The notes under the pieces: model-generated | The model's input: the letters and a program-made list of their open reading frames with translations, nothing else | Told to the model about the DNA's origin: nothing | Databases searched by the model: none | In this document: positions 1 through 19,263 of the stretch, piece after piece | How the letters are laid out: each line of letters opens with the position of its first letter | How positions within the stretch are numbered: position 1 is the first letter of the stretch | Program-made: the position numbers and the translations under genes | NCBI RefSeq assembly: GCF_004339575.1 | Contig: NZ_SMFV01000005.1 | Coordinates: forward strand, 62,001 to 126,000 | From: Phorcysia thermohydrogeniphila | Lineage (GTDB): Bacteria > Aquificota > Aquificia > Desulfurobacteriales > Desulfurobacteriaceae | Reading direction: 5' to 3' | DNA: 64,000 nt

Positions 1-418
1 TCTCGTATATAGTGTTACCCTTTGCAGTTTCAAGGAGTGTAAGAGCTGCTTCTCTACAGTGGTAGGTGTAGGCTGAAAGTCCCATGTTTGCCTTGATGAG
101 GAGGTTCCTCATAACAATACCGTGAGCATCAATACCACATACGCCCCTTGGAGTTTGAGGTGTTATACGGCATGGACCCATTGAACAGAGTTGACATGAG
201 ACACCTTCCTTACAGAACTTACACCTTACTTTTTCCATAGCTTCAAAACGGTCTGCTACGTTGCTGAGCTGGGCCTCTTTTACTTTTTGGTACATGTAGT
301 TAACGCTTTCGTGAAAGCTGGGAACCTTTACTCCTACACCCGTGGCAAGGTCTGTCTCGGTGCAGAAATTTTCTTGATTCTGGTTTTTCTGGTTCCCTTT
401 CTTGAAGAATCCGAACAT
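1..418 (-). CDS. cooS: Anaerobic Ni carbon monoxide dehydrogenase catalytic subunit, N-terminal part (runs off the window)
   Basis: Only the first 139 codons are inside the window; the gene continues to the left. Reading the minus strand from ATG at 418 gives a protein with cysteines at residues 66, 69, 75, 78, 83 and 94, including the block CKFC-x5-CxxC-x4-C with GPCRI, then GVCGIDAHGIVMRN. These are the [4Fe-4S] D- and B-cluster region and following helix of the CooS/prismane family. The enzyme oxidises CO to CO2, or runs in reverse in autotrophs, at a Ni-Fe-S C-cluster whose ligands lie outside the window. A strong Shine-Dalgarno (AAGGAGGAGC, complement of 421-430) fixes the start. It is divergent from the NifX-like gene, with a perfect palindrome between them. 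Confidence 0.9.
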   Translation of the reverse strand, partial: MFGFFKKGNQKNQNQENFCTETDLATGVGVKVPSFHESVNYMYQKVKEAQLSNVADRFEAMEKVRCKFCKEGVSCQLCSMGPCRITPQTPRGVCGIDAHGIVMRNLLIKANMGLSAYTYHCREAALTLLETAKGNTIYE

Positions 419-10357: not shown

Positions 10358-10385
10358 TTGACACCTTGAAATTTGTGTGTATAAT
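10358..10385 (+). promoter_or_regulatory. Consensus sigma-70-type promoter of hao
   Basis: TTGACA (10358-10363) and TATAAT (10380-10385) are both perfect hexamers with a 16-base spacer, 42 bases before the hao start codon. Such a match suggests strong transcription, in keeping with a highly expressed respiratory enzyme. Confidence 0.8.
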
Positions 10386-10426: not shown

Positions 10427-11803
10427 ATGAAGGGGAAGCTCAGCAAGCTCCGCACAGGGCTGCTGGCGGTAACCTTTGCTGCTGCAGCAGTAATTGGTCT
10501 TAATACTACCGACGCCAGCGCAGCCCTAAGGAAAATCTCACCTCAGACTCAGGCATGCCTTGGGTGTCACAAGAGCATGAACCCAGCTCTTGTTCAGCAG
10601 TGGGGAGTCAGCAGACACGCTGAATCAGGTGTTGGTTGCTACGAGTGTCATATGGCAAACAAGAACGACAAAGACGCCTTCCAGCACTTTGGCTTCACCA
10701 TTTCCACGATTGTATCCCCACTTGACTGTGGAAAGTGTCACCCCAAAGAGGCTAAGGAAGTTACAGAATCCCACCATGCCAAGGCTGCTCAGTTCGTAGG
10801 TTCTCTTGACAACGTTCTCGGTAGGATAGTAGAGGGAGAGGCCCTCTTTAACCTCGGATGTGCTCAGTGTCACGGAAGGGTCATACCTGTTAAGAACGGC
10901 CTTCCAATTATGGGTCCATGGCCTAACGAAGGTATCGGAAGGGTTAACCCAGACGGTTCTAAAGGAAACTGTGCTGCATGTCACTTCAGGCACAGCTTCA
11001 GCCTGAAGCAGGTTCGTAAGCCTGACATGTGTGGTAAGTGTCACCAAGGACCTGACCATCCACAGATTGAGATTTGGGAGCTCTCCAAGCACGGTATTGC
11101 TTACAAGTCCCACGAGTCTGAAATTGAGCAGACCCTTGACAGGGCTAAGTGGGTTCTTGGAGAGGACTACTATCAGGCTCCAAACTGTGTAACCTGTCAC
11201 ATGGGTGCTTCTGTAACTGGTGCTAAGGCAACCCACGACGTAGGTGCAAGGCTCTCTTGGACTTTAAGACCACCAATCTCCAAGCACAAGCCTAACTGGG
11301 AAGCTAAGCGTGCTGAAATGAAGAAGGTCTGCCAAGCTTGCCACCAGAAAGTATGGGTAGACGCCTTCTACTACCAGTTTGACAACCTCGTTAAGCTCTA
11401 CAACGAGAAGTTCGCTATTCCTGCTAACAAGATTATGAAGTTCCTCAAGAGCAGGAAACTCATTGACCCAACACCGTTTAACGAGAGGATTGAGTGGACC
11501 TACTTCTACCTCTGGCACCATGAGGGTCGTAGGGCACGTCACGGTGCTTCTATGATGGCTCCTGACTGGACTCACTGGCACGGTCTCTATGAAGTTGCCG
11601 AAAGGTTCTACTTTGAGCTTATCCCAGAGGCCGATAAGATTGTAGCTGAGAAGGGCTCAAGGGCTGACAAGAGGGCTTGGAAGAAGTTCAAGGAAGAGCT
11701 CTTCAGCAGGCCTGAGCACAAGTGGTTCAAGGGTATGCCTAAGTCTGAGCTCAGGAAGATTGCTGAGTTCTACATGAAGCGTTACGGACAGACTGCTCAG
11801 TAA
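10427..11803 (+). CDS. hao: Octaheme cytochrome c of the hydroxylamine oxidoreductase family (reductive, epsilon-Hao-like)
   Basis: The 458-residue protein has a Sec signal peptide cut after DASA (about 32) and exactly eight CxxCH motifs, at 44, 70, 100, 144, 181, 201, 253 and 301. The C-terminal part has the HAO-family block LWHHEGRRARHGASMMAPDWTHWHG. Octaheme Hao proteins of nitrate ammonifiers lacking NrfA are thought to reduce nitrite, or hydroxylamine, in the periplasm. The nearby napCMADGH genes and absence of nrfA here support that role. A Trp (W380) stands in the PD-x-x-x-WHG segment where I expect the cross-linking Tyr of oxidising HAO; this assignment needs an alignment. Preceded by AAGGAGGG and a consensus promoter; followed by its own terminator. 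Confidence 0.93.
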   Translation: MKGKLSKLRTGLLAVTFAAAAVIGLNTTDASAALRKISPQTQACLGCHKSMNPALVQQWGVSRHAESGVGCYECHMANKNDKDAFQHFGFTISTIVSPLDCGKCHPKEAKEVTESHHAKAAQFVGSLDNVLGRIVEGEALFNLGCAQCHGRVIPVKNGLPIMGPWPNEGIGRVNPDGSKGNCAACHFRHSFSLKQVRKPDMCGKCHQGPDHPQIEIWELSKHGIAYKSHESEIEQTLDRAKWVLGEDYYQAPNCVTCHMGASVTGAKATHDVGARLSWTLRPPISKHKPNWEAKRAEMKKVCQACHQKVWVDAFYYQFDNLVKLYNEKFAIPANKIMKFLKSRKLIDPTPFNERIEWTYFYLWHHEGRRARHGASMMAPDWTHWHGLYEVAERFYFELIPEADKIVAEKGSRADKRAWKKFKEELFSRPEHKWFKGMPKSELRKIAEFYMKRYGQTAQ

Positions 11804-11820
11804 TCCTTTACAGAAGAAAC

Positions 11821-11861
11821 GGGGACGGGGGAAGTACTCCCTCGTCCCCTTAACTATTTTT
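11821..11861 (+). terminator. Intrinsic terminator after hao
   Basis: A 12-bp stem with one G-U pair (11821-11832 with 11838-11849), a five-base loop and a T-rich tail (TTAACTATTTTT) follow the hao stop by 17 bases. It lies between hao and the rest of the cluster, so distal genes need read-through or another promoter. Confidence 0.85.
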
Positions 11862-11874
11862 GGGAGGTTGGAAA

Positions 11875-12735
11875 GTGAAAAAGTTGCTTTTTTTAGTGGT
11901 TTTTACTTCTGTTCTTACCGTTAACTCTTACGGAAACGAAAAAATCAAGTGTCCGGACACTATTTTGAAAGCTCCAGTTTCTTACTTCTACTGTGTCTAT
12001 AGTGACTACCACAATCACAAGTACGATGAGGGTATAAAAAAAATAAAAAAGGCCATAGAAGATTTAACTCCCCTCTATCTTAACGATAAAAATCAAGAAG
12101 TTCCCAATGCGGTCTCAAAGGAAGGACGTTTAAAGGATTCAAAAGTTTATGAGGCCCTTTCAGACCTTCATATGCTCTTGGGGATGTTTTACTACCAGAA
12201 GGCCTTAAATATGGATAATCCTTCCGTTTCTAGGAGGTTGTACGGTAAGCTTCAGCAAAAGGGAAAAGTAAATCCATTTGCCCTTTTTGAACTTTTGGAG
12301 CTCCACGCTGAAAAGAAGGTGGCTCCCGAGTTTTTTTCCGAAGAAAAGGCAAAGAGGTATAAGGAGCTGCTCAAAGAGTTAAGCTTGAGCGAGGAAGAGT
12401 TTAACTCTCTCCTTTCTCAGATCCGAAAGGAAGTAGAAAAGGATGAGAAACTTAGATTTACGCTCATGCAGAAAGCCCTTGAGGAGCTTCAAAAGGCGAT
12501 TAAATTAAATCCTAAGAATGCAATGGCTTATTACCAGCTGGGCAACTTCTACTCAGGTTCCCTCTCTGAGAGTTCCCCATCAGGTTCTGGCTTCTCTTCA
12601 GCCGCTGAAGAGGCTTACTATAAGGCTGCTCTCCTTTTTAAAGAGAAAGGAGATAAAGAAGCTGTAAAAGAGATACTAAAGAAACTGCAGCTACTTAACC
12701 CAAAGTCTAAATATCTAAAGGAGCTGAGGTCATAA
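11875..12735 (+). CDS. Exported TPR-containing protein of unknown function in the nitrate cluster
   Basis: From GTG at 11875 the product is 286 residues with a Sec signal peptide (KKLLFLVVFTSVLTVNSYG). GGGAGGTTG ends 5 bases before this GTG; an in-frame TTG at 11860 would start before the ribosome site and is rejected. It has a two-cysteine pair early in the mature part (KCPD...YFCVY) and a TPR-like helix pair (ALEELQKAIKLNPKNAMAYY) with a Ser/Gly-rich linker near residue 215. I do not recognise the family. It abuts the following lipoprotein gene (stop then ATG). Position between hao and napC suggests an assembly or scaffold role in nitrate/nitrite reduction; this is inference. Confidence 0.75.
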   Translation: MKKLLFLVVFTSVLTVNSYGNEKIKCPDTILKAPVSYFYCVYSDYHNHKYDEGIKKIKKAIEDLTPLYLNDKNQEVPNAVSKEGRLKDSKVYEALSDLHMLLGMFYYQKALNMDNPSVSRRLYGKLQQKGKVNPFALFELLELHAEKKVAPEFFSEEKAKRYKELLKELSLSEEEFNSLLSQIRKEVEKDEKLRFTLMQKALEELQKAIKLNPKNAMAYYQLGNFYSGSLSESSPSGSGFSSAAEEAYYKAALLFKEKGDKEAVKEILKKLQLLNPKSKYLKELRS

Positions 12736-13215
12736 ATGGTGAAGAGATTTGCTTCTATGCTTCTCTTTTCCTTCCTCTTAGGCTGTGCCACCACTCCTCC
12801 TCAACCTTCCTTGCAGTCTCCATCTCCAGAATCCACTAAAAAGGTACCTTCTCAAGAGTTACCCCTTACCTACAAGGTTGACGTTAAGAAGCTGAACGAG
12901 TGTAAAAGGCACTTGATTTACGTGGACCAGTACATTACGGCCTCAGATTACGATAGTGCTCGCGATGAGCTTAAAGAGGCTGAGAAAGTTTGCTCTCCGG
13001 AGGACCCTACGTTTGTTTATCTTAAGGCAGTCTACTATGACGTTGTAGAGGAGAGGGATAAAGCATTTCAACTTTACTACAAGGCTTTGAGGCTATTTAT
13101 GAAGGATGGTGACATGGGGGGGGCTTTTAAAGCCTACTCCGGTATGTTGTCAATAAAGCCTTTCTCTCCGGAAGTAAAGAAAGTGAAAAAGTATTTTGAA
13201 GATGACGACTTTTGA
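12736..13215 (+). CDS. Lipoprotein with TPR-like helices, unknown function
   Basis: The 159-residue product begins MVKRFASMLLFSFLLGCATT, a clear lipoprotein signal with the lipidated cysteine at residue 17, followed by a Pro/Ser-rich linker. The rest is alpha-helical with a repeated pattern (ITASDYDSARDELKEAEKVC, YLKAVYYDVVEERDKAFQLYYKALRLF) resembling TPR units. The gene starts directly after the stop of the upstream TPR protein, so the two are probably made together and may interact. No named family is recognised. Confidence 0.75.
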   Translation: MVKRFASMLLFSFLLGCATTPPQPSLQSPSPESTKKVPSQELPLTYKVDVKKLNECKRHLIYVDQYITASDYDSARDELKEAEKVCSPEDPTFVYLKAVYYDVVEERDKAFQLYYKALRLFMKDGDMGGAFKAYSGMLSIKPFSPEVKKVKKYFEDDDF

Positions 13216-13281
13216 TATAGAGAGTTTTATATGTTAAACTTATGGTGCAATATAAGAAATTCCTTTTAGAGGAGGTTTGTT

Positions 13282-13824
13282 GTGAAAGAGAAGGTTAGAA
13301 ATCTCATAATAGGTGGGATAGTGGGACTTATAGTAGGTGGAGTAGCCTCCCTAATCTCAGCCCAGATGATTGAAAATACGGCTGAGCCGGAATTCTGTGG
13401 TTCCTGTCATGAGATGAAACCAATGTTTGAAGCTTGGGAAAAGGGTCCCCATGGTCCCTTAGGCAACAAGAGGGGGGCAATTAGAGCCGGTTGTGCTGAC
13501 TGTCACCTGCCTCATACGAGCGTTCTTTCCTACCTGATTAATAAGAGCAAGTTTGGGACTAACGACCTTTTTGCCCATTTCTTTAAAGGAGGCTACGCTG
13601 ATGACCTTGAACATTGGATAGAGAAAAGGAAGGAGAGGGACCATTACGTCTTTGTATCAAACTGCTATCGCTGCCATACGAACCTTCCTGACAATGTAAT
13701 GCACCAGAAGCTTGAAAAGGGAGAGATAGAAGGAAATTGCTTAACTTGTCACTGGTATGTAGGACACGGTTTTGATTTTGAAAACGAGCTTAAGAAGTTT
13801 TTCAAAGAAGAAAAAAAGGAGTAA
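13282..13824 (+). CDS. napC: NapC/NrfH-type membrane tetraheme cytochrome c (quinol dehydrogenase)
   Basis: The 180-residue protein has one N-terminal membrane anchor (about 9-28) and four CxxCH motifs at 39, 71, 128 and 153. The first is CGSCHEM, with the methionine arrangement of the NapC/NrfH family. It would take electrons from the quinol pool to periplasmic reductases. Order napC-napM-napA-napD-napG-napH is the one reported for Desulfovibrio desulfuricans. Since hao is upstream, it may serve the Hao protein too (as HaoC/CycX does in epsilonproteobacteria). Start is GTG at 13282 with AGAGGAGG upstream. Confidence 0.9.
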   Translation: MKEKVRNLIIGGIVGLIVGGVASLISAQMIENTAEPEFCGSCHEMKPMFEAWEKGPHGPLGNKRGAIRAGCADCHLPHTSVLSYLINKSKFGTNDLFAHFFKGGYADDLEHWIEKRKERDHYVFVSNCYRCHTNLPDNVMHQKLEKGEIEGNCLTCHWYVGHGFDFENELKKFFKEEKKE

Positions 13825-13868
13825 AATATAGGTGAATGTAATGAACAAACTATACGGGGAGGTGCAAA

Positions 13869-14279
13869 GTGAAAGCCAAAGTTTTTATCCTAAGTGCCGG
13901 TTTTGCGGTGATGTTGAGTTCTCTCTCATTTGCAGACCAACACCCTTTGCCACCAGATACTATTAGGAGTTTACCTCCGCAGCAACAGCAGTGTAGAGTT
14001 TGCCATCAGCAGGTTACACCTAAGGTTTACAAAGAGTGGGCTCATTCAAAACACGCCATTGCTAACGTAAGGTGTTTCCAGTGTCATGGTACATTTGAGG
14101 ACTTCCACAGGACACCTCCACTTACAAAGTGTATGGCATGTCACTACAACGAAGTTGAAACTATGCAGAAGAACAAGCCCGGTAGCGTTTGTTGGGACTG
14201 CCACAAGGAGCATATCTTTGAATTCCACGGACATGGAGTTAAGAAAATTAAGACTGCTAAGGATTTTGGGGTAAAGTAA
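13869..14279 (+). CDS. napM: NapM-like periplasmic tetraheme cytochrome c
   Basis: The 136-residue protein has a Sec signal peptide (cut near LSFA-D) and four CxxCH motifs at 42, 69, 88 and 108. Between NapC and NapA this matches NapM of the Desulfovibrio-type nap operon, which lacks the diheme NapB; no napB is seen here. It probably passes electrons from NapC to NapA, or to Hao. Start is GTG at 13869 preceded by GGGGAGGTG. Confidence 0.82.
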   Translation: MKAKVFILSAGFAVMLSSLSFADQHPLPPDTIRSLPPQQQQCRVCHQQVTPKVYKEWAHSKHAIANVRCFQCHGTFEDFHRTPPLTKCMACHYNEVETMQKNKPGSVCWDCHKEHIFEFHGHGVKKIKTAKDFGVK

Positions 14280-14310
14280 AATATTAAAAATTTGAATAAC
14301 GGAGGGTACG

Positions 14311-16965
14311 ATGGGAATTGGAAGGAGAGAATTCCTTAAAAAGAGTGCTGCACTAACGGCAGCATCCTTGGTAGGTATTAACCTGAAGATAAAGGCCGAT
14401 GGTAAACTTGGAGTAGAGGAAGCTACTGCTGGAGAGAACCTTGCTCAGATACCAGAAGAAGTTAAGCGTTCCCCTGCTTATAAAAAAGAAGGAGAATACG
14501 AGTGGGTTAGGGGAGTTTGCCGTTTCTGTGGAACAGGTTGTAAGGTTTGGTTAGGTCTTAAGAATGGAAAACCTGCAGTTATCCGTGGAGAGAAGAATTC
14601 TGTCATTAACTTTGGTTTCCTTTGCATGAAAGGAATGCTCTTCTACAAGCTCTTTAGACATCCTGACAGGCTTACCCAGCCTCTCTACAGAAAGAGCAAG
14701 AAGGAGCCCTTCAAGCCTATTTCTTGGGAGAAGGCATTTGACATTATCGCTGATGAGATGATTAAGGCTATCAAGAAAGGTGAATGGGGTCCTATGGGAT
14801 GGACCGGAATTGCCTACTACGGTTCCGGTCAGGCTCTGACAGAAGAGACATACCTCTTCCAGAAGTTCTGGAGATGTCTCGGTTCCAACCATGTAGAGGG
14901 TAACCCCAGACTCTGTATGGCATCTGCAGTTGGTGGATACCTCACCTCTTTCGGAACGGATGAGCCAGCAGGAGGTTATGCTGACTTTGAAGAAGCCGAT
15001 ACAATCTTCATCATCGGTTCTAACACGGCAGAGTGTCACCCAATCCTCTACCGTCGTATTATGAGAAGGAAGCTCTCCAACCCGAAAGAGGTTATGGTAA
15101 TCAACGTTGACCCAAGGGTATCTCCAACTTCCAAGATTGCCGACATCCACCTTCAGTTTAAGCCCGGAACAGATTTGGCTCTCTTAAACGCTATTGCTAA
15201 CGTTATCATTCAAGAAGGACTCTATGATAAGGAATTTGTAGAGAAGTACTGTTCATTCCACAAGTTTACAAAAGGAAAGGATAAGGTTCCTCTCATAGGT
15301 CACCAAGTATCTTTTGAAGAGTACAAGGAGTTCGTATCTAAGTACACCCCTGAGTACGCGGCTGAAGTCTGTGGAGGAAACGTTACTCCTGAGCTTATAA
15401 GGAAAGTTGCAAGGAGATTCGCTACTACAAAGACGGTTTCTATCTGGACAATGGGTCTTAACCAGAGGACAAGGGGTGTTTGGGTTAACAACTTGGTAAC
15501 AAACCTTCACCTACTTACGGGTAACCTTGGTAAGGATGGAGCGGACGCTCTTTCCTTGACTGGACAGCCAAACGCTTGCGGTGGTGTTCGTGAAGGTGGT
15601 GGACTCTGTCACATCCTTCCCGGACACAGGGTTGTTAAGAATCCAAAGCACAGAGCTGAGCTTGAGAAGATTTGGGGCGTTCCAAAGGGAACAATTCCTC
15701 CAAAGCCCGGTTACCATACAGTTAAGATGTTCTCCGCTATTTCCTACACCGAGGAAGACAAGAAGAGGTTCCCCGGACTTAAACCCATCTACTTCATCTG
15801 GGTAAACGAGACCTCTCCCCTTCAGTCCCTCCCGAACATGAGGAGGTTCCGTGAGGGATTCGCAAGGGATGATGTATTCGTTGTCGTAACTGACATCTTC
15901 CCAACAAGAACCTCAGAGCTTGCTAATATGATTCTTCCTTGTGCGTTCCACTTTGAGAAGACAGGAGTTTACGGTTGTACGGAGCGTCGTTCACAGCTTA
16001 CACCGAAGGCCGTTAAGGCTCCCGGTCAGGCAATGCCAGAGCTCTGGATGCTTGTACAGCTTGGACAGGTCCTTGCTAAGAAACTCAGGAAGGAGAGAGA
16101 TCCGAAGCTTCGTGCAAGAGCTAAGACCATTTACCAGTGCGTAGCTCCATTTATTGAAGCTGCTAAGAGAGATCCATGGTGGGAGCTCTCCAAGAAGGTT
16201 TGGGAGGAGTACGCTCAGCGTGTAACCAAAGGAAGGGATTCTACACTTGCAGGTGCTACTTATGAGGTTCTCCTTGAAAGGCCCGACGGTGTTCAGTGGC
16301 CTGCTCCTACAGTTGAGATTGCAAGGAAAGGAGGAACTCTCAGAAGGTTCGTCGTTGGAAAGGACCCACTTGCTACCGAGTTTGCTAAGAAGCACGGACT
16401 TACCGACTGGAAGATTATTGACTACGGTCACCTCCACAAAGACCACAAGTTCTGGATTTGGCTCAGGCCTTACAAGGGACCTGCTGAGCCACCAGATGCT
16501 GAGTATCCGTTCTACCTCTCAACAGGTAGGGTTATTGACCACTGGCATACCGGTTCTATGACAGGCCGTATCCGTGAACTTGCAGGTGACTATCCTCATA
16601 CTTGGATTGAAATTAACCCGAAAGATGCTCAGAGGCTTGGAATTCAGCCGGGAGACCTTGTTCTCCTTGAGACTCGCCGTGGAAGGAACATCCTTCCTGC
16701 GAGAATCTCTACAGAAGAAGGTCCAATGGAAGGAATGGTCTTCGTTTACTGGTACGACCAGTCTAAGGACAGGATGATTAACTTCTGTACGATAGATGCT
16801 TTTGACCCCGGCTCCAAGCAGCCTGAGTTCAAAATCTGTGCTTGCCGTATCAAGAAGTACGCTCCAGCAAAGCCCCTCAAGCAGTTCCTCGTTAAGCTTG
16901 AGAAGGTTAGCGGCGGTTACCTCCACAACTCCGAGATTGATAAGAGCCAGAAACACCCTGTTTAA
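14311..16965 (+). CDS. napA: Periplasmic nitrate reductase catalytic subunit, Mo-bisMGD
   Basis: The 884-residue protein reduces nitrate to nitrite in the periplasm. It starts with a Tat signal (GRREFLKKSAALTAASLVG), followed by the [4Fe-4S] site CRFCGTGC...LCMKGM (C70, C73, C77, C105). The probable Mo-ligand cysteine is C202 in GNPRLCMASA. The C-terminal MGD-binding domain contains YPFYLSTGRVIDHWHTGSMT. It is somewhat longer than E. coli NapA (828) and much longer than D. desulfuricans NapA, with an insertion-rich central part. Codons are strongly biased to AAG and GGA/GGT, consistent with high expression. A strong terminator follows directly. Confidence 0.96.
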   Translation: MGIGRREFLKKSAALTAASLVGINLKIKADGKLGVEEATAGENLAQIPEEVKRSPAYKKEGEYEWVRGVCRFCGTGCKVWLGLKNGKPAVIRGEKNSVINFGFLCMKGMLFYKLFRHPDRLTQPLYRKSKKEPFKPISWEKAFDIIADEMIKAIKKGEWGPMGWTGIAYYGSGQALTEETYLFQKFWRCLGSNHVEGNPRLCMASAVGGYLTSFGTDEPAGGYADFEEADTIFIIGSNTAECHPILYRRIMRRKLSNPKEVMVINVDPRVSPTSKIADIHLQFKPGTDLALLNAIANVIIQEGLYDKEFVEKYCSFHKFTKGKDKVPLIGHQVSFEEYKEFVSKYTPEYAAEVCGGNVTPELIRKVARRFATTKTVSIWTMGLNQRTRGVWVNNLVTNLHLLTGNLGKDGADALSLTGQPNACGGVREGGGLCHILPGHRVVKNPKHRAELEKIWGVPKGTIPPKPGYHTVKMFSAISYTEEDKKRFPGLKPIYFIWVNETSPLQSLPNMRRFREGFARDDVFVVVTDIFPTRTSELANMILPCAFHFEKTGVYGCTERRSQLTPKAVKAPGQAMPELWMLVQLGQVLAKKLRKERDPKLRARAKTIYQCVAPFIEAAKRDPWWELSKKVWEEYAQRVTKGRDSTLAGATYEVLLERPDGVQWPAPTVEIARKGGTLRRFVVGKDPLATEFAKKHGLTDWKIIDYGHLHKDHKFWIWLRPYKGPAEPPDAEYPFYLSTGRVIDHWHTGSMTGRIRELAGDYPHTWIEINPKDAQRLGIQPGDLVLLETRRGRNILPARISTEEGPMEGMVFVYWYDQSKDRMINFCTIDAFDPGSKQPEFKICACRIKKYAPAKPLKQFLVKLEKVSGGYLHNSEIDKSQKHPV

Positions 16966-16982
16966 AGAGGATGAATTTAGAA

Positions 16983-17007
16983 GGGGGGCAGTAGCCCCCC
17001 TTTTTTT
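16983..17007 (+). terminator. Strong intrinsic terminator between napA and napD
   Basis: GGGGGGC (16983-16989), loop AGTA and GCCCCCC (16994-17000) form a perfect 7-bp GC stem followed by seven Ts. It stands 17 bases after the napA stop, inside the nap gene run, so napDGH expression should be lower than napA or come from a separate promoter. Confidence 0.9.
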
Positions 17008-17061
17008 CATGCATTAATTTGATTCAACTTTTAAAATGAAATTTGATTAGGAGAGGTTGAT

Positions 17062-17436
17062 ATGCCAATTGTCAGTTGTGTTATTTCTGCGTTGCCGGAT
17101 AAAGGATCTGAAGTTGAAAAAGCCTTGCTTGAGATTCCCGGAGTTGAAGTTTACGGAGGTGAACTTAAGGAGGAAGAGAATATTTACTACATCATCGTTG
17201 TCCTTGATGCTGAGAGGTATAGGGAGCTTGAAGCCATAGAAGCTAAGATTAAAGAAATAGATGGTGTTCTCCAAATTGCTGTTGTAGAGGCTCATTTCCT
17301 TGAAGAGTTTGAAAAGATAGAAAGAGGAGAAATTGTTCCTGAAAATCCTTTCCAAGGTTTAAGGAAAGCTGAGAAAATTGCCGAAAAGATGTGGCTTGGA
17401 GAAGACGAAAATGGAGAAGAAGGAAAGGACAACTAA
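17062..17436 (+). CDS. napD: NapD, Tat-signal chaperone of NapA
   Basis: The 124-residue protein has the NapD ferredoxin-like fold pattern: PIVSCVISALPDKGSEVEKAL, GVEVYGGELKEEENIYYIIVVLD, and IDGVLQIAVVEAHF. NapD binds the NapA Tat signal in the cytoplasm and holds export until cofactor insertion. It is longer than E. coli NapD by a charged C-terminal tail (about residues 90-124) that overlaps the napG start region. AGGAGAGG precedes the ATG. Confidence 0.9.
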   Translation: MPIVSCVISALPDKGSEVEKALLEIPGVEVYGGELKEEENIYYIIVVLDAERYRELEAIEAKIKEIDGVLQIAVVEAHFLEEFEKIERGEIVPENPFQGLRKAEKIAEKMWLGEDENGEEGKDN

Positions 17437-18088
17437 TAGAAGGGAGTTCCTGAAGGTAACCCTTGGAGCTTTCATAGGTGGGACTCTTTTTTCCTGTAGT
17501 CTTTCTGACCTGAAAAACCCGAAGACTATGGTGAAAACACCGATTAGGACAAACATTCTGAGGCCTCCCGGTGCTGTTCCAGAAGAGCACTTTGCCCAAA
17601 AGTGTATCCGCTGCGGTAGATGTGGGGAAGTCTGTCCGTACCACTGTATAAAGTACTTTGACGTTCTTAGCGGTGGTGTTTTCTCTGGTACCCCCTACAT
17701 TGACGTGATGGAAGTGCCCTGCTACCTGTGTATGAAGTGTGTTCATGTCTGCCCTACCGGTTCTCTTGTTCCCTGTGCTAAGGAAGAAGTCAGGATGGGA
17801 GTTGCTGTAATAAACAGGCAAGTTTGTGTTACGTGGCAACAGAACAAAACGGGTCTTATGTGCAAGACCTGTTTTAACGTTTGTCCTTTCTCTGGTATTG
17901 CCATAAAAATTGACCATGATTTCAGGCCTTACATTGTTGAGGAAAACTGTACAGGTTGCGGTATCTGCGCTTATTCCTGCATAGCTGACCAGTATCCCGA
18001 TAACAACGGACAAAAAGCTATAAGGATTGAACCGATAAAGTGGAAGAAGATAAAGGAAATAAAACTGGAAGATATTAAGAAATCGTAA
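17411..18088 (+). CDS. napG: NapG, periplasmic ferredoxin-type protein with four [4Fe-4S] sites
   Basis: From ATG at 17411 the product is 225 residues with a Tat signal (TNRREFLKVTLGAFIGG). Four cysteine clusters follow: CIRCGRCGEVCP, CYLCMKCVHVCP, a split CVTW...CKTCFNVCP, and CTGCGICAYSC, the last with Ile instead of the usual Pro after the fourth Cys. NapG works with NapH to move electrons from quinol toward NapA. The start 33 bases upstream is rejected because the Tat motif begins here; the gene still overlaps napD by 26 bases. Confidence 0.93.
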   Translation: MEKKERTTNRREFLKVTLGAFIGGTLFSCSLSDLKNPKTMVKTPIRTNILRPPGAVPEEHFAQKCIRCGRCGEVCPYHCIKYFDVLSGGVFSGTPYIDVMEVPCYLCMKCVHVCPTGSLVPCAKEEVRMGVAVINRQVCVTWQQNKTGLMCKTCFNVCPFSGIAIKIDHDFRPYIVEENCTGCGICAYSCIADQYPDNNGQKAIRIEPIKWKKIKEIKLEDIKKS

Positions 18089-18100
18089 GAGGTGTTTGCC

Positions 18101-18982
18101 GTGAAAAAGAGTGCTTGGAAGAGGATTACTTGGTGGAGGTATGCTTTTCTTGCTTTCTGCTTCCTAATAATTGCGGTTAACCCCTTTCTTAACTACCACT
18201 GGGACATCAACTTTGTTCAGGGATGGTTTCAGTCCATAGGAATTGGAAACCTTTGGGTTGTTTCTCCCCTTGAAGGTCTTGAGTCTATCTTAACTGCAAA
18301 GTTTTTCTATATGCCATCCCTCGTTGGAATGGTGGTACCTGTAGTTGTTGCCCTGCTAATGGGGAGAGTTTTCTGTAGTTGGATGTGTCCCATAGAGTTT
18401 CTCTCTGTTGTTACTGATAAGTTTCTTGGGATTTTTTCTAAGAAGCTGAAGTACCGTAAAGACCTTATCTCCTTGCCTCATAAGATTTTGTGGTTTGCTT
18501 TGACTACCGAACTTCTCCTTACGATGGTCATAGGCTACCCGATGTTTGTCTGGTGGTCTCCTCCGGGTCTCGTTGGAAGGGAAATTATGTTTTACGCCTT
18601 CTATAAAGTAATTACTGTTGAAGTTTGGATAGTTGTAGTTGTTCTTTCCCTCAACCTTTTCACGAGGCGCTTTTTCTGCCGCTACTTCTGCCCTCTCGGA
18701 GCTCTTTTGGCTCTCATAGGAAAGAAGAGACAGCTTGTCATCAAATATCTGCCTGATAAGTGCATTAACTGTAAGGTTTGTGATACAAGATGTCCTATGG
18801 GAATCAAGCCGAGTATTGGAGAAAGCCAAACTGTTTATTGCTGGAACTGTGCAGAGTGCGTTGATGCCTGTCCGACAAAAGCTCTCAAGTTTATCTGGAG
18901 GGATGACGGAGTTATAAGATTAAAACTTCATAATGAATTGACAACTTCTTCTACTGCTGGTAAATTCTCATCTACAGGATAA
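18101..18982 (+). CDS. napH: NapH, membrane ferredoxin quinol dehydrogenase
   Basis: The 293-residue protein has four membrane helices, two cytoplasmic-side CxxxCP motifs (CSWMCPIEF and CRYFCPLGAL) and a C-terminal pair of [4Fe-4S] clusters (CINCKVCDTRCPMG and CWNCAECVDACPTKAL). With NapG it forms a second quinol-oxidising route beside NapC. GTG at 18101 is preferred over GTG at 18092, because the Shine-Dalgarno GAGGTG (18089-18094) would overlap the latter. It follows napG by 12 bases. Confidence 0.93.
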   Translation: MKKSAWKRITWWRYAFLAFCFLIIAVNPFLNYHWDINFVQGWFQSIGIGNLWVVSPLEGLESILTAKFFYMPSLVGMVVPVVVALLMGRVFCSWMCPIEFLSVVTDKFLGIFSKKLKYRKDLISLPHKILWFALTTELLLTMVIGYPMFVWWSPPGLVGREIMFYAFYKVITVEVWIVVVVLSLNLFTRRFFCRYFCPLGALLALIGKKRQLVIKYLPDKCINCKVCDTRCPMGIKPSIGESQTVYCWNCAECVDACPTKALKFIWRDDGVIRLKLHNELTTSSTAGKFSSTG

Positions 18983-19005
18983 ACTTTCAGCTGGGAGGTA
19001 AGAGT

Positions 19006-19263
19006 ATGAGGAAGGTTATTGTCGGACTTGCAGTTTTCGCTGCCTTAACGGCTCAGGCCTCTGCCGGTGTTTGGGAGTCTAACTGTGCCGGCTGCCACAA
19101 TGGCTCTGTGGCTCAATCAACTGCTGAGGTTCTTAAGAAGAAGTTCAAGACTAAGCAGGAGTTTATAAACGCAGCAAAGAATACTACAAACCCCATGATG
19201 GCTGGAATAAAGGCTAATCCTCAGCTCATAGAGGAGGCTGCTAAGGAGCTCTACGGTAAGTAA
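19006..19263 (+). CDS. Small periplasmic monoheme cytochrome c
   Basis: The 85-residue precursor has a Sec signal peptide cut after QASA (residue 20) and one CAGCH heme motif at the mature N-terminus. A later methionine (PMMAG, about 65) is a plausible sixth ligand, so this looks like a class I cytochrome c of about 65 residues. As last gene of the nitrate island it may carry electrons between the nap/hao components. AGGTAAGAG precedes the ATG; a terminator follows. Confidence 0.88.
   Translation: MRKVIVGLAVFAALTAQASAGVWESNCAGCHNGSVAQSTAEVLKKKFKTKQEFINAAKNTTNPMMAGIKANPQLIEEAAKELYGK

Follow-up and report, generated by a model that had tools for sequence, protein, structure and literature searches.

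An operon of ten plus-strand genes, hao-tprA-tprB-napC-napM-napA-napD-napG-napH-cytochrome c, occupies positions 10427-19263 of a 64,000-nucleotide stretch of the Phorcysia thermohydrogeniphila genome (contig NZ_SMFV01000005.1, order Desulfurobacteriales), which we call the window. We consider it likely that its products form two linked respiratory modules, which would together convert nitrate to ammonium in the periplasm, with the octahaem cytochrome Hao and an NrfH-like 'NapC' reducing nitrite directly. An earlier note, made from the window's sequence, had described a nitrate-to-ammonium island here, and motif counts and family matches placed every gene that it named where it had put them. 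The operon is confirmed as real and its conserved order as not due to chance: hao-tprA-tprB-napC-napM lie on one strand in 14 genomes, including the window's own, and in 11 of the 14 the order continues through to the monohaem cytochrome, several contigs stopping early.

The octahaem cytochrome Hao

Hao contains eight CXXCH haem motifs and no CXXCK. Its best relative in the PDB by sequence was 4qo5 (168 bits when searched with the single sequence and 395 bits when searched with the A2 profile), which we take to be the Ignicoccus hospitalis octahaem cytochrome (IhOCC) of Parey 2016. An AlphaFold2 model of Hao (pLDDT 83, 40 sequences) was also closest to 4qo5 in VIA-align (Z 26.2, rmsd 3.0 over 376 residues), followed by the HAO group at Z 19-22 (Kuenenia 6h5l, 21.7), NrfA at about 10 and TaNiR (8rv0) at 8.9. 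In the Foldseek list NrfA appeared at E > 1, compared with its Z of about 10 in VIA-align. Although 4qo5 is the nearest protein in both sequence profile and fold, it differs, as read from the alignment, in two places: the His of an Asp-His pair is Val, and the tryptophan position described below is occupied by Phe. Hao retains this pair as D210-H211, aligned with Asp267-His268 of HAO, which presumably have a role in the active site.

In the HAO of N. europaea, Tyr467 sits within the stretch GGWTY. Tyrosine does not occur anywhere from residue 362 to 386 of the window's Hao, in which the position equivalent to Tyr467 is 384 (Trp) without gaps, or 383 (His) with the one-residue gap placed by MAFFT. 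As quoted in PMC8940962, Haase's marks of epsilon-Hao are that tryptophan replaces the tyrosine and that a methionine precedes it by eight residues; the window's Hao matches this signature with W384 and M376, a point in common with epsilonproteobacterial HaoA. Of 109 aligned octahaem proteins, 96 had both residues. Excluded from this set were the broken G115 and partial G122 sequences, L110-L113 and L115 as duplicates, the second octahaem protein of L156, and also L164, in which no open reading frame matched the motif. The same sequences were kept out of a quick octahaem tree, used for one grouping alone and carrying long-branch warnings, in which the main Hao proteins of the order fell together with one Nitrospiraceae metagenome-assembled genome (16 rows, SH-aLRT 100). 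By sequence and predicted structure, Hao is thus a protein with the marks of epsilon-Hao: eight haem motifs, the HAO fold, and Trp and Met in place of the cross-linking Tyr. Because the Ignicoccus cytochrome is its nearest relative by both sequence and predicted fold, and because it carries the epsilon-Hao signature, Hao most likely reduces nitrite. The reductive, epsilon-Hao-like character that the earlier note had proposed is therefore supported by the proximity of 4qo5, the lost tyrosine and W384/M376.

We compared 24 genomes of the order and found a NapA orthologue (at least 76% identity) in 18. Signature-type Hao was present in 17 of these 18, compared with one of the six genomes without NapA (Fisher p 8e-4, a descriptive value, as the species are related and not independent). 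The one NapA-carrying genome without a signature-type Hao was G113, which has a completeness of 64% and a contig with napC-M-A-D-G. Among the six NapA-less genomes, signature-type Hao occurred in G124, non-signature octahaem proteins alone in G123 and G125-G127, and no match at all in G120. The signature was also absent from all 12 octahaem proteins of the order that were checked away from nap. Hao and NapA lie on separate contigs in G129, and in G128 the hao gene, whose product is of the signature type and shows 34% local identity to the Hao of the window, runs divergently from napCMADGH.

The quinol dehydrogenase and the Nap proteins

The earlier note had counted 'NapC' as part of Nap, a placement that our results do not favour. 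The protein is a member of the NrfH/NapC family (PF03264, 83 bits against a cut-off of 24.1) with an N-terminal anchor, and it scored 88.5 bits with the NrfH model (cut-off 134.2) versus 44.3 bits with the NapC/NirT model (cut-off 310.6). Its sole PDB match was NrfH (2j7a/2vr0). Genes of this type also accompany Hao where nap is lacking: in G124 a 'napC'-type gene lies directly 3' of hao and NapA was not matched anywhere in the genome, and on plasmids of Desulfosarcina ovata and Desulfobaculum bizertense a NapC/NirT gene directly precedes a Hao about 40% identical to the window's, with no nap genes annotated within the 17 kb shown around it. Among the matches listed, 11 of 80 wider loci, including those of Vibrio, Photobacterium, Shewanella, Grimontia, Neiella and Aliagarivorans, have a tetrahaem one-helix protein on the same strand no more than 300 bp from Hao, and nap-like genes occur too in two of the 11 (L115 and L183). 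In L110-L113, which belong to the window's own family, the tetrahaem one-helix protein is present after the tetratricopeptide repeat (TPR) genes. Because it is NrfH-like and pairs with Hao without nap elsewhere, 'NapC' looks, from its sequence and these neighbourhoods, like a quinol dehydrogenase of the NrfH type that goes with Hao and not with Nap.

Two further arrangements were seen around Hao relatives. On the Desulfosarcina ovata plasmid (L108:7260-13620) the pair of NapC-type gene and hao adjoins norR and a nitric oxide reductase gene; it lies near a Tn3 transposase and the plasmid is mobilizable, so that it is possibly a mobile nitrosative-stress module. Loci L152, L175, L184 and L187, from Methylococcaceae and other gammaproteobacteria, encode after the Hao relative a protein that has nine haem motifs, is predicted to be multi-helical and would probably serve as a different electron donor.

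The remaining nap genes resemble the Desulfovibrio type, as the earlier note had said. The NapA models gave 626 and 593 bits, both under their cut-offs (626 versus 904), and the best PDB relatives were the periplasmic nitrate reductase chains 2jio and 2jim/2nap, with 2jio best at 653 bits over residues 64-849. We take these chains to be NapA of D. desulfuricans. With these relatives the window's NapA shares the stretch around one Cys, which is presumably the molybdenum-binding residue. An insertion of about 100 residues has been reported for Desulfurobacteriaceae NapA (PMC13223375), and the length of 884 amino acids here fits it. NapM is so named for its position and haem count. As had been noted, napB is absent from the island, and it is absent from the whole genome as well (PF03892, 0 matches); across the order NapB was found in one of 24 genomes (G128). 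By sequence, then, the set conforms to a Desulfovibrio-type Nap, with a monomeric NapA, NapM and no NapB.

Since NapMADGH occurs elsewhere without NapC, and pairs of Hao and NapC-type protein occur without nap, the operon fits a NapMADGH module joined to a separate module of Hao and its quinol dehydrogenase, the latter in line with the proposal for HaoA and CycB of Nautilia (PMC3701875). In the first, NapH and NapG would oxidise menaquinol; NapA, a monomeric molybdenum enzyme, would receive the electrons, probably via NapM, and reduce nitrate to nitrite. In the second, the membrane-anchored NrfH-like 'NapC' would oxidise menaquinol and deliver electrons to Hao, whose catalytic haem, without the lock of a tyrosine cross-link, could carry out the six-electron reduction of nitrite to ammonium, mostly with no release of hydroxylamine. 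The TPR proteins would probably aid the assembly of Hao or serve as a scaffold of the complex, and the small monohaem cytochrome may act as an electron shuttle.

The two genes between hao and napC had been described as those of unknown exported proteins; export was upheld, and they can now be named as a TPR protein (tprA) and a TPR-like putative lipoprotein (tprB). TPR families matched six of six members of tprA, and its predicted model is a helical repeat (pLDDT 86). The product of tprB carries the lipobox-like motif LLGC. In the window and 13 relatives the pair separates hao from napC; in G114 it is flanked by two tandem hao genes, and it is absent from the hao locus of G124 and the nap locus of G128. 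A fold search for function returned generic TPR proteins only, with TM-scores of 0.13-0.24 in the listed rows, and therefore no function follows from it. NrfG is a TPR protein, and by that analogy we would guess at a role in Hao maturation.

Alternative fates of nitrite

The genome of P. thermohydrogeniphila (1.62 Mb, 99.4% complete) was searched for other nitrite and hydroxylamine reductases. The lone NrfA match (PF02335) was Hao itself, at 18.9 bits against a cut-off of 24.1, and NrfA exceeded the cut-off in none of the 24 genomes of the order. Sirohaem nitrite reductase (PF01077) was likewise found neither in this genome nor in any of the 24, whereas the same family was matched in 11 of 14 control genomes. 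Neither NirS (PF02239) nor NirK (TIGR02376), which the earlier note had proposed to look for, was matched in this genome. An nrfA elsewhere in the genome had been named as the finding that would overturn the reading; this objection fails because the genome yielded no nrfA, nirS, nirK or sirohaem nitrite reductase. Octahaem tetrathionate reductase (Otr) was over the cut-off in none of the 24 genomes, a weaker negative because the model matched no control genome; below the cut-off, G124-G126 gave 189-193 bits over most of the model and the window's own genome 35 bits. For Hcp, the lone PF03063 match in this genome was CooS (TIGR01702, 734 bits versus 478; TIGR01703, 57.5 versus 360.8). Hcp exceeded the cut-off in a single genome of the order, G114, which also has tandem hao genes.

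These searches bear on how Hao would handle nitrite. The earlier note had allowed for passage through hydroxylamine. In a reverse hydroxylamine-ubiquinone redox module (reverse-HURM), as proposed for Nautilia profundicola from the same two periplasmic parts, HaoA and CycB/NapC (PMC3701875), Hao and its NapC-type partner would release hydroxylamine and a separate reductase would make ammonium from it. Yet the reductase of that proposal, Hcp, is missing here, the only prismane-family protein being CooS, and it is rare in the order, so that we regard this route as unlikely. Because the genome lacks Hcp, direct six-electron reduction of nitrite to ammonium is more likely than a route through free hydroxylamine. 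Similarly improbable is that Hao is a nitrite reductase forming nitric oxide (NO), or an enzyme of NO or hydroxylamine detoxification, and that ammonium is made by another enzyme. The HAOr of Kuenenia makes NO (PMC12485887), the Kuenenia structure 6h5l is among the folds closest to the Hao model, and the Desulfosarcina plasmid relative with its NapC-type partner adjoins norR and nitric oxide reductase; but our family searches turned up no other ammonia-forming enzyme, hao heads the nap operon in 14 genomes, and T. ammonificans, a member of the same family, converts nitrate to ammonium (PMC5441870, citing Vetriani 2004). That Hao oxidises hydroxylamine, as in nitrifiers, is hardly credible: it shares its fold with HAO (Z about 21) and keeps the Asp-His pair, but it has no tyrosine for the P460 cross-link, its gene is part of a nap operon, and we saw no known source of hydroxylamine.

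Several observations count against direct nitrite reduction by Hao with 'NapC' as its partner. 'NapC' falls under the cut-offs of both the NrfH and the NapC models, and 69 of the 80 wider loci among the matches listed lack a tetrahaem partner beside Hao by the adjacency rule, some of them having other multihaem membrane proteins and several lying on contigs that end too near. The HAOr of Kuenenia that makes NO from nitrite is related and also tyrosine-less (PMC12485887), and the data reported for Nautilia fit a free hydroxylamine intermediate (PMC3701875). The link between Hao and nitrate reduction is not a strict one, since G124 has Hao but no NapA. A further nitrite reductase is also possible because the genome has other multihaem proteins, among them one of 692 amino acids on C7 (L200:2367-4445) that matched short cytochrome c families only. 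The C-terminus of this protein has a Cys/Gly-rich stretch, a hydrophobic segment and an Arg-rich tail, and we take it to resemble a surface-sorting signal.

Operon features and related systems

The features of the operon are given in Table 1. The napD and napG genes overlap by 59 bp, and all other intergenic gaps are 0-96 bp. The promoter-like site upstream of hao is at most a candidate promoter, because the scan that found it gave no excess of sites over shuffled sequence (eight sites against a mean of 10.1). FNR- and CRP-like boxes 5' of hao were considered and rejected, as there was one weak match in the window and one among 12 relatives, and these were not conserved.

Table 1. Coordinates in the window of the promoter-like site and the ten genes of the hao-nap operon.
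Feature	Position	Strand	Description	Evidence
Promoter-like site	10358..10385	+	TTGACA-16-TATAAT, sigma-70-type, 41 bp 5' of hao; suggestive	12/12 consensus positions
hao	10427..11803	+	Exported octahaem cytochrome c of epsilon-Hao/IhOCC type; proposed nitrite reductase	8 CXXCH; PF13447, 77 bits
tprA	11860..12735	+	Exported TPR protein	Synteny with hao-nap in the order
tprB	12736..13215	+	TPR-like putative lipoprotein, partner of tprA	TIGR02521, 27.9 bits (below cut-off); synteny; alignment
'napC'	13282..13824	+	Membrane-anchored NrfH-like tetrahaem cytochrome	4 CXXCH; PF03264, 83 bits
napM	13869..14279	+	Periplasmic tetrahaem cytochrome	4 CXXCH; position before napA; synteny
napA	14311..16965	+	Tat-exported monomeric-type periplasmic nitrate reductase	
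napD	17062..17436	+	NapA chaperone	PF03927, 46.5 bits (cut-off 28)
napG	17378..18088	+	Periplasmic ferredoxin-type subunit	NapG model PRK09476, 130 bits (under cut-off 269)
napH	18092..18982	+	Membrane ferredoxin-type quinol dehydrogenase subunit	TIGR02163, 118 bits (under cut-off 213)
Monohaem cytochrome c	19006..19263	+	Small, exported	One CXXCH; PF13442, 25.3 bits (just under cut-off); conserved at operon end

Some relatives depart from this layout. In G115 (L034:8263-9638) hao is broken into two overlapping open frames, by pseudogene formation or assembly error, and the two tandem hao genes of G114 (L047), about 78% identical, stand on either side of tprA-tprB. In G130 (L042:10085-11779) and G135 (L046:10144-11802) a second octahaem protein of 552-564 amino acids is encoded on the same strand just 5' of hao; it has about 33% identity to the window's Hao and carries the M/W signature. 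The gene of the CO dehydrogenase CooS (minus strand, G000:C5:60523-62202) extends into the start of the window (1-202).

The combination of Nap and Hao, which the earlier note had pointed out, proved not to be new. In Caldithrix abyssi, Nap with an adjacent epsilon-Hao and no NrfA has already been described, and that description gives, as here, a Desulfovibrio-like nap with napM, neither napB nor NrfA, and an adjoining tyrosine-less epsilon-Hao (PMC5317091). Unlike the route considered here, electrons were there proposed to pass through Rieske/cytochrome b, ACIII and NapM; the window differs further in phylum and in having an NrfH-like tetrahaem cytochrome and two TPR proteins between hao and nap. 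The clusters described for Deferribacter autotrophicus (napMADGH-hao-hcp; PMC6896113) and for Thermosulfurimonas and Dissulfuribacter (PMC5276818) likewise have NapMADGH and a Hao relative, with no NapB or NrfA reported, but they have Hcp and no NapC, whereas the window has a NapC-type protein and its genome no Hcp. Nautilia profundicola resembles P. thermohydrogeniphila in combining a tyrosine-less Hao with a quinol dehydrogenase of the NrfH/NapC family, but by its locus tags it has a NapABGH set, haoA away from nap, and Hcp (PMC3701875). TaNiR and TvNiR, which convert nitrite to ammonium, are octahaem proteins like Hao; unlike them, Hao lacks the CXXCK haem site that they are described as having (PMC12142623, PMC12285233), and its fold match to TaNiR is weak.

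Although this type of cluster is known from other thermophiles, what seems to be new is Hao as a candidate for the open nitrite step of Thermovibrio ammonificans. For that organism napCMADGH and a putative NirA (Theam_1000) were reported, with the nitrite step said to remain "to be experimentally elucidated", and the word hydroxylamine is absent from the main text of the paper (PMC5441870). We infer that G132 is T. ammonificans; there, an epsilon-Hao-type gene lies five genes 5' of napA. In the open-access literature, the subscription literature being outside the search, we found no assignment of Hao to the nitrite step in this family. The chances seem evenly balanced that the whole order of deep-branching, heat-loving vent bacteria, T. 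ammonificans included, makes ammonium by a hydroxylamine-free pathway with Hao alone, an NrfH-like partner, two lineage-specific TPR proteins, and neither Hcp nor another known nitrite reductase. If so, the pathway drawn for T. ammonificans would be mistaken in its sirohaem 'NirA' step. The published question of how nitrite becomes ammonium in T. ammonificans becomes directly testable with a single gene and a single enzyme. Furthermore, if Hao makes ammonium without Hcp, this would bear on whether reductive octahaem enzymes depend on a hydroxylamine reductase in the first place, and on the change of direction within the NrfA/HAO superfamily.

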